From Patescibacteria group bacterium (GTDB lineage: Bacteria > Patescibacteriota > Patescibacteriia > Patescibacteriales > WJLG01), in contig JAQTUZ010000017.1 in NCBI GenBank assembly GCA_028707065.1, positions 1-34,075 of the forward strand: a stretch of 34,075 nucleotides of DNA. Direction: 5' to 3'. The position numbers and the translations under genes were made by a program. Positions within the stretch are counted from its first letter, which is position 1. Each line of letters starts with the position of its first letter. The notes under the pieces are model-generated. The model worked only from the letters and a program-made list of their open reading frames with translations. It was not told the origin of the DNA and searched no databases. This document shows, piece by piece, positions 32,624 to 34,075 of this stretch.

Positions 32624-33458
32624 AATCGCTTTGCTTAATATTACTATTAAGCCCACTTTCGTGGCTGCATATCGCTATGCAGATAGAACTCTATCTTTTC
32701 TACCTTTGGGTAGAATTTGACGTTTGGTTTCTGAGGATTCTAATTATATTTGCTCGAGATTTTTGATGATTCATTTTTTCAGTGATCAATGCGATTTTTA
32801 TCGCGCCGCTTTTTGTTAAATGCTTTCCGTTTTTTATTAACTTCACGCATCTAACGAAAAAATTAAAATCATTTTTCTTGGAGGTTTGCAGTTGATATTT
32901 TTGAAAGAAAGGAATAATCACATTAATTAAATCCTCTCTTTTTGAAACGGAATATCGATATAAATGCTCTTTATGATTGTCATAACGGCGATTTATATAA
33001 ATATTACCGACCTTGAAATAATCTTTCAATTTTTTCAAGCTATCGATGCTCTTTTCTCCTTGCACCACGGCAAATTCGTGGGCAATTTGGTAACCGGTTT
33101 TATATCCTCTTCTGATTCTTGACGTTTCTTTTCGATCCGGCTGTTTCACAAAATTAATTGAGAAACAACCTTCTCCGTCAACATAACCGGTTATCCAACC
33201 TAACATAATTAGTCTTTCCTGCTGATTGTCTGCACGAGACGAATTTTCACTTTTTGGCATAATTTTAGACAATTAATATATATTGTATTATACCATCAAG
33301 TAGCGCTCGATACTACAGGGTTTTACCCACAGAGTTTCCAGCATATAGTCAATTTAGGACAATTATAATTTACATCATAATTGGGCAGCTTCCTTATTTG
33401 TTTACCTATCTATAATCGTCCCAATCCTTCTCTGATATAAATCTCTCTATATTAGAGA
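32624..33458 (-). other. Intron in 23S rRNA at position 1931 (835 nt), probably group I
   Basis: Removing it restores CCTAAGGT/AGCGAAATTCC, the nearly universal 23S sequence. A P7-like pair AACUCU...AGAGUU spans the open frame, supporting group I. Two oddities: the last intron base by this cut is U, not the usual G, and a 15-base complement of the upstream exon (33410-33424 against 33462-33476) sits near the 5' end, together with a near-copy of that exon (33354-33370). Exact splice sites are therefore less certain than for the first intron. Site 1931 is a known rRNA intron site. Confidence 0.75.
32700..33260 (-). CDS. LAGLIDADG homing endonuclease in 23S intron (site 1931)
   Basis: A 186-residue protein from ATG 33260. 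The single LAGLIDADG motif is 'LGWITGYVDGEGCFSINFV', with acidic catalytic residues in 'VDGEG'. Then come 'GYQIAHEFAVVQGEKSID', 'LKDYFKVGNIYIN' and 'YRYSVSKREDLINVIIPFF', which are usual LAGLIDADG_1 core elements. One motif suggests a homodimer. It would cut intron-less 23S DNA at the U1931 site. No Shine-Dalgarno is visible. The C-terminal codons overlap the S-like core of the intron, since the stop lies just before the P7 3' strand. Family is sure; activity untested. Confidence 0.9.
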   Translation of the reverse strand: MPKSENSSRADNQQERLIMLGWITGYVDGEGCFSINFVKQPDRKETSRIRRGYKTGYQIAHEFAVVQGEKSIDSLKKLKDYFKVGNIYINRRYDNHKEHLYRYSVSKREDLINVIIPFFQKYQLQTSKKNDFNFFVRCVKLIKNGKHLTKSGAIKIALITEKMNHQKSRANIIRILRNQTSNSTQR

Positions 33459-34075
33459 ACCTTAGGACGATTATAGTTATCGCCGGCGTTCATCCACGCT
33501 TCGGTTCAAGGCTTCACCTTGCGGTTAACCCCTCTCCTTAACGTTTGGACACTGGCCAGGCGTCACTCCCTATACATCCTCTTACGAGTTAGCAGAGAGC
33601 TGTGTTTTTGGTAAACAGTCCGTTGGGCTCTTTCGCTGCGGCCGATCTTGCGATCGGCAGGCCTTCTTGCGAACTTACGGCCGATTTTTTGCCGAGTTCC
33701 TTAACGATGATTCTCTCGTGCACCTTAGTCTTCTCGACTCGCCAACCTGTGTCGGTTTTAGTACGGGTACCGTTTCCTTAACCCTAGAGAGTTTTCTGGG
33801 AAGTCCCTCCCCGCAAATTGACGATCTATTGCTAGACCATCTGCATACGACCTCTTGAAATATCGCTCCGGATTTGCCTGGAGCTATTCTTGAAGCAATA
33901 AACGCATATACCAATATCGCGCTTGCGGTTCGAAACTTCGTTATCCCATTGGAAAAAAACGGTAGTGCTGGAATATTAACCAGCTTATCCATCGGCTACG
34001 CCCCCATTACAAAGGCCTCGTCTTAGGACCGACTAACCCTGGGCCGATTTACGTTGCCCAGGAAACCTTATGCTT

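Follow-up and report, generated by a model that had tools for sequence, protein, structure and literature searches.

A site-1931 group I intron of Patescibacteria 23S rRNA with a second guide sequence that may clamp its 5' exon

The intron at position 1931 of the 23S rRNA gene

The window analyzed here is the whole 34,075-nucleotide stretch of contig JAQTUZ010000017.1 from a Patescibacteria group bacterium (assembly GCA_028707065.1; host genome G000, assembly of 1.5 Mb), in which the 23S rRNA gene is interrupted after U1931 (E. coli numbering) by an intron of 835 nt, running from 33458 to 32624 on the minus strand, the strand on which all features of the intron lie. The 5' exon ends in ...CCUAAGGU and the 3' exon reads AGCGAAAUUCC; these boundaries were drawn from the continuity of the exons (GGU followed by AGCG) in comparison to the intronless relatives L026 and L028, as well as from the break of the Rfam large subunit (LSU) rRNA alignment at this point. 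Introns at this site (L1931) interrupt 23S rRNA genes at a position that is conserved in intronless relatives. Our study concerns a segment near the start of the intron that is complementary to the adjacent exon and that probably represents a second exon guide besides the usual internal guide sequence.

Helix 69 of the exon (GGCGAU-AACUAUA-AUCGUC; 33466-33484) is identified by its sequence, the Rfam LSU model, and a hairpin fold, and its 3' strand together with part of its loop forms the target of the guide. The exon segment CTATAATCGTCCTAA (33462-33476), its complement TTGGGACGATTATAG (33410-33424), and a near-copy of the exon, TTATAATTGTCCTAA (33354-33368), were all found where the original prediction had placed them, and the 15 pairs between exon and complement, including one U-G (33464 with 33422), were confirmed as well. 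Based on covariation with the exon in 136 introns, the complement corresponds to an exon guide at 33410-33423, to which U33424 adds the 15th pair in the window. Its target spans C1914 to A1927 (33463-33476) according to covariation, the window fold, and alignment A1, which comprises 55 relatives without the P4-P6 domain and their exons (length of at most 240 nt, A in the guide sequence; L163 was excluded because it has P4). Between splice site and guide lies a 5' hairpin (33429-33458) that is predicted by folding and whose homologous helix (helix 3) covaries in A1.

When the exon and the start of the intron were folded together, the resulting structure (-50.5 kcal/mol, z -5.5, with 0 of 200 shuffles as good) contained the exon-guide helix with a mean pair probability of 0.994, and the pairs of helix 69 were at 0.0. 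The proposed competition between the two helices was thereby borne out, with the guide helix winning in the fold. Furthermore, the best 12-nt exon complement within the first 110 nt of the intron scores 11.5/12, which none of 200 shuffles equaled (p 0.005, the floor of this comparison). We also considered whether the complement is the internal guide sequence itself, which is ruled out by the presence of the real one, GCUGCCUUAG, in guide-less relatives, where it covaries with the exon (CUAUGGU with GCCAUAG); in guide-bearing introns, the canonical sequence persists downstream of the exon guide. Likewise, derivation of the guide from the 5' strand of helix 69 by copying is ruled out, since the guide complements the loop, too.

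The remaining parts of the intron conform largely to a group I plan. The canonical internal guide sequence GCUGCC (33384-33389) is the same element that forms a covarying P1 of 7 bp in guide-less relatives. In the window, its GCC (33384-33386) pairs with exon GGU to a P1 of only 3 bp, with the wobble U33459.G33386 at the splice site, while its GCU (33387-33389) pairs with AGC of the 3' exon (32621-32623) to form P10, a helix that is 100% paired in A1. The P3 5' strand UUGAC (33348-33352; partner GUCAA, 32717-32721) was assigned by eye and by homology with relatives, and the P4 5' strand UGCUG (33339-33343; partner CAGCA, 33220-33224) by eye, so that P4 is kept in the window intron. An open reading frame (ORF; 32700-33272) for a LAGLIDADG_1 homing endonuclease of 190 aa (PF00961, E 1.6e-21) overlaps the P4 3' strand and fills the P6 region. 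In P7, the 5' strand AGAAACC (32726-32732) carries A32729, the equivalent of Tetrahymena G264, and the 3' strand GAGUUC (32686-32691) carries U32687, the equivalent of C311; the last intron nucleotide, omega (32624), is U in place of G.

Thus, P1 with its U.G wobble, P10, and the P3-P4-P7 core are all present, but neither an omega G nor a G-C pair at the P7 site is found (U and A-U instead). The window intron scores 17 and 11.3 bits with the Rfam group I model RF00028, below the gathering score of 50, its 573-nt ORF splitting the core; L199, a sister intron that shares this plan, lies above this threshold (56.8 bits). As omega U and the A-U site have changed together, we regard the window intron as an aberrant group I member by homology, not as a canonical one. 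An archaeal-type splice motif, considered because the last base of these introns is often not G, is ruled out by the group I core and P10.

Conservation and covariation of the exon guide

Introns at the same site were gathered regardless of a complement, with a search pattern that excludes only intronless genes (exon followed by NND). This yielded introns in 51 of 380 genomes of a class sample and in 38 of 379 genomes of a phylum sample, 30 of the latter outside the class list; after omission of G660 (no intron) as well as G540 and G572 (3' end not found) from the phylum sample, 78 introns remained overall. A third sample, from the class of G647, contributed 32 of 383 genomes with 31 usable introns (L270 was dropped) and partly overlaps the earlier ones (e.g., G647 and G654). 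The guide was recognized by its signature in 34 of the 51 class-sample introns (35 including G062, by eye), in 2 of 27 usable L1931 introns elsewhere in the phylum sample, and in 18 of 31 from the G647 class (13 by signature and 5 more by eye). It takes the form aaGGAYURGGACGAUUAU after a hairpin, is complementary to exon C1914-A1927, and in most relatives is located 31-44 nt from the 5' end of the intron. Moreover, a scan of genome contigs from 84,980 species for exon plus guide returned at least 119 loci; among the matches listed, most of the named ones belong to Patescibacteria, and several are labeled only 'bacterium'. Two guide-bearing introns carry other labels (L070, Elusimicrobia NORP122; L105, Caldithrix sp.), both on short contigs that are perhaps misbinned.

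Comparison with these introns bore out the conservation of the complement and revealed its covariation with the exon. Pairing is seen in 1793 of the 1904 exon-guide cells from 136 unique guide-bearing introns, compared to 1698.6 +- 7.5 with shuffled guides (maximum 1725 in 2000 shuffles); for 36 introns that were not selected for a guide, the corresponding values are 467 of 504 and 454.9 +- 2.1 (maximum 463). The exon sequence differs between hosts because helix 69 varies, and at position 1924, exon C stands opposite guide G in 115 of 115 cases, exon U opposite guide A in 18 of 21. Exon AAUCGUCC is paired with guide GGACGAUU in 44/52 introns, exon AACGGUCC with guide GGACUGUU or GGACCGUU in 40/46, and exon AAUCGUUC with guide GAACGAUU or GAACGGUU in 18/21.

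A second conserved pairing, helix Px, is formed by the four bases GGAY at the start of the guide element and the RUCC that follows the P2 hairpin. In the window, these strands are GGAU (33424-33427) and GUCC (33357-33360), the latter within the near-copy, and P2 is the hairpin CAAUUAU...AUAAUUG (33360-33383), predicted by folding and pair probabilities. Across 128 aligned introns, 430 of 512 Px cells are Watson-Crick pairs (390 +- 4.4 after shuffling, maximum 405), and the alignment position of Px is 84% paired, with the next best position at 50%. Variants include GGAU/AUCC (13 introns), AGAC/GUCU (4), GGGC/GCCC, and GAGU/ACUC, as well as UGAC/GUCA in L265 and L266.

The presence of the guide goes along with a change in P1. 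In guide-less introns, the canonical guide sequence starts near the splice site, at a median of 7.5 nt, and P1 comprises 7 bp in 34 of the 40 that could be resolved (41 tried), whereas in those 36 introns from the class and phylum samples that carry the guide, P1 measures 4 bp in 26, 6 bp in 7, and 3 bp in 3 (Mann-Whitney P 9e-13). Opposite C1925, 35/40 guide-less introns have G, compared to only 10/133 guide-bearing ones, with L071, L153, and L109 (uncertain) and L129 (no internal guide sequence found) excluded from this assignment. Since P1 is shorter and the partner of C1925 has changed where the guide covers 1914-1927, guide and P1 appear to share the exon between them.

The guide as a probable clamp on the 5' exon

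We consider it likely that this is a group I intron with a second exon guide, which acts as a clamp on the 5' exon beside the usual internal guide sequence, mainly because the exon is divided between the guide and P1. At the level of sequence, the pairing, its covariation, and this division are shown by comparison of the introns; what we infer is the clamp's role in splicing, the succession of events, and the clamp's release. The guide would pair with exon 1914-1927 and pull helix 69 open, so that P1, shortened to 3 bp in the window and usually to 4 bp, would be left with the end of the exon, while Px, formed by GGAU and the GUCC of the near-copy, would lock the guide beside P2. Acting together as the clamp, guide and Px could then keep hold of the 5' exon during both steps of splicing, until ligation releases it and helix 69 can form again.

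Several points weigh against this interpretation. The search pattern fixes part of the guide signature, so that only positions 1924, 1921, 1920, and 1914-1917 are informative, and the guide shuffles leave shared ancestry in place. Mismatches between guide and exon persist in some introns (exon AACCG with guide GAUU in 4 introns), as would be seen after horizontal transfer. Furthermore, the guide is not required at site 1931, as introns with a 7-bp P1 do without it, and with only 3 bp, the P1 of the window would be a weak one for catalysis.

It is unlikely that the guide serves instead as a checkpoint that keeps helix 69 of unspliced 23S rRNA unfolded and thereby blocks modification or ribosome assembly. 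Helix 69 is a main bridge between the ribosomal subunits, and the guide does cover its 3' strand and part of its loop. However, such a checkpoint fails to predict the shortening of P1, the handover at C1925/U1926, Px, and the matching guide for the 3' exon that is described below, and guide-less introns occupy the same site without a block of this kind.

The near-copy led the original prediction to propose a built-in switch, in which exon and near-copy compete for the complement and thereby define exon-bound and released states. For the window intron, this has some appeal: near-copy and exon are identical at 13 of 15 positions, a match that 0 of 100 shuffles of its own region reach, and both differences are C to U, which retains pairing with the complement in the form of U-G. 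The near-copy can therefore pair with the complement over 13-15 nt, with a duplex energy of -16.3 kcal/mol compared to -20.0 kcal/mol for the exon. Accordingly, the guide lies on the exon when the latter is present in the fold, whereas the minimum-energy structure of the window intron without exon (-25.8 kcal/mol) pairs it with the near-copy. This outcome of folding was obtained for the window intron only, for which a specific released state with the guide on the near-copy is physically plausible. As a general switch, however, the near-copy did not hold up. A 13/15 match is found in just 2 of 133 introns (the window intron and L137), most having 7-9/15 with 8/15 as the commonest best match, and the guide scores a mean z of -0.5 against the downstream region of related introns. 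Sequence and comparison resolve the near-copy (33354-33368) into the 3' strand of P2 (UUAUAAUUG; P2 pair probabilities 0.96-1.0), the GUCC that belongs to covarying Px, and UAA. While the two pairings can thus exclude each other in the window as proposed, the two GUCC segments have adjacent partners, GGAU lying immediately 5' of the complement, not one shared partner, which renders a switch quite improbable. The extra similarity of the near-copy to the exon is best left as chance atop Px and P2, and the suggested trace of target duplication is unnecessary to explain the sequence.

We give even less credence to the idea that the guide is chiefly a mobility device that makes reverse splicing into intronless 23S rRNA more specific. 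A longer guide means a longer target, and the family is spread across many Patescibacteria lineages among the matches listed, but the window intron has its own LAGLIDADG endonuclease for homing at the DNA level, and the target would need helix 69 to be opened. Finally, chance complementarity or a mere trace of target duplication, for which the AT-richness of the short segments and the resemblance of near-copy and exon could be cited, is hardly credible; for the complement, it is contradicted by more than 130 introns that show conservation and covariation.

Relatives without P4-P6 and the nucleotide site in P7

A length of only 178-240 nt is common among guide-bearing introns, and in these short ones, the P3 and P7 5' strands are 7-10 nt apart, which leaves no room for P4-P6. 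This domain is lacking in 61 of 133 guide-bearing introns and, according to model R1, in a further one (L129); P4 status was set by hand for L073, L145, and L179 (P4-less, from alignment A1) and for the unresolved G193 (set to P4). All 61 introns without P4-P6 have A opposite U1931, resulting in a U-A pair at the 5' splice site, while the 72 introns with P4 have G in 65 cases and A in 7 (Fisher 3e-30). The same holds for the class of G647, in which 8 of 31 introns lack P4-P6 (R1 scores of 69.9-105.4 bits), each of them with A, whereas the 10 guide-bearing introns with P4 have G (by eye; L259 was assigned the state of L086, of which it seems to be a copy). Model R1 also gave weak second matches elsewhere (22-28 bits).

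The full model of A1, consisting of guide, Px, P1, P10, P2, P3, P7, P8, P9, and a guide for the 3' exon, is paired in 92.9% of 3507 cells, compared to 77.7% after shuffling and 36-45% with partners slid (covariation 0.449 versus 0.168). P3, P8, and P9 covary, four P7 pairs are 100% paired, and omega is G in 53 of 54 introns (before the reassignment of three introns). Having P3, P7 with its guanosine site, P8, P9, P10, and omega G but no P4-P6, these relatives may be called group-I-derived on the basis of their sequences. Examples in A1 are L063, L106, L123, L156, and L222, which have 178-240 nt, a U-A 5' splice site, and a guide for each exon. The 3'-exon guide, which spans the 3' splice site as AGGAAU/AUUCCU, is paired to 97% in A1 and changes with the exon (GGUAU/AUACC, GGUAC/GUACC, GGAAA/UUUCC). 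A perfect (6/6) match was found in 49/57 introns without P4-P6, 10/68 other guide-bearing introns, and 1/41 guide-less introns; the window intron has no clear 3'-exon guide. None of the five short introns checked (L228, L168, L080, L070, and L073) has an Rfam group I match, and that of L222 falls outside its short intron. Adenosines of J4/5 recognize the splice-site U.G wobble (PMC10020454). With J4/5, the reader of the wobble, absent, a joint loss of P4-P6 and wobble would make sense.

The second departure concerns the nucleotide site, which in Tetrahymena is centered on G264-C311 for guanosine (PMC10020454, relevant part) and which in the window is the A-U pair A32729 and U32687, in an intron that ends in U. 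We surveyed P7 and the terminal base in 195 same-site introns (165 by script, 30 by eye). Base 311 is U in 11 introns, all 11 of which end in U, as does no other of the 195; it is A in 8 introns, all 8 of which end in C (for L107, the partner strand was not found). Where base 311 is C, the terminal base is G (136), A (36), or C (2), and the single intron with G, that of G517 (L045) with C-G at the P7 site, ends in A; the P7 site of G139, which ends in G, was not resolved. The associations of U and C (Fisher P 3e-18 and 1e-12) are uncorrected for ancestry, and end sequences are shared to 60-72% within the U set and 60-84% within the C set. Since one site holds both the external nucleophile and the last base, a changed nucleotide preference is the simplest prediction; hydrolysis or a protein are alternatives to it. 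An exception at omega is reportedly known from Coxiella, going by the title of a paper.

Group I introns, textbook ribozymes, are held to depend on a P4-P6 scaffold, on guanosine, and on a U.G wobble where the 5' exon ends. Judged by their sequences, the introns of the L1931 family would be natural, covarying exceptions to all three, and the second exon guide may explain how such exceptions are tolerated. Our results suggest that the grip on the exons lets some relatives shed parts thought essential. We tentatively extend this to the possibility that two-sided exon guides freed these introns from group I rules: one branch may have lost P4-P6 together with the J4/5-read U.G wobble, while the branch of the window intron may have recoded the site (A-U with terminal U; U-A with terminal C) and may take uridine or cytidine, not guanosine, in one or both steps. 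The roles of P4-P6 and of the wobble, as well as a natural change of ribozyme cofactor, thereby become directly testable. The findings are relevant for annotation, too, as the five short introns in scanned loci are missed by Rfam group I.

Parts of this architecture resemble known systems. In the Tetrahymena intron, a hairpin of the exon competes with P1, so that exon structure and intron pairing are mutually exclusive as they are here; the difference is that a separate intron strand opens the exon hairpin in the introns described above. Group II introns divide the 5' exon between two separate strands, EBS1 and EBS2, but this is an analogy only, since the introns studied here have a group I core with internal guide sequence, P3, and P7. 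A minimal group I ribozyme without P4-P6 was reportedly made in the laboratory by Ikawa et al. in 2000; it was engineered, whereas the relatives reported here are natural and carry guides on both exons. In the open-licence literature searched, no description was found of a natural group I intron that lacks P4-P6 or has additional exon guides, which is weak evidence of novelty.

At the site itself, group I introns are known from Synechococcus, Thermotoga, Simkania, and chloroplasts, and the relevant part of Haugen et al. 2007 (PMC1995217) describes L1917 and L1931 introns as IC1-like and without a P2 element. They share the site, a single-motif LAGLIDADG gene, and the group I core with the introns analyzed here; however, the guide-bearing ones differ from those described there in P2, the extra guide, Px, and the shortened P1, with Thermotoga compared by description only. 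For the Candidate Phyla Radiation (CPR), Tsurumaki et al. 2024 (PMC11270868) report 23S insertions at 1917, 1931, 1952, 2593, and other positions that carry LAGLIDADG_1 genes, and Rfam group I introns in 45% of CPR 23S insertions; the exon pairing, the missing P4-P6, and the terminal-base pattern are not described in the relevant passages of that survey.

The window contains two additional features of the same rRNA region. A partial repeat of the 5S rRNA 3' end and its downstream tail lies at approximately 30590-30640 on the minus strand, just beyond the 5S gene (30720-30833). Furthermore, a second insertion with a LAGLIDADG_1 ORF (31415-31867) is located at approximately 31300-31990 on the minus strand, which, by its flanks, we take to be near 23S position 2593.
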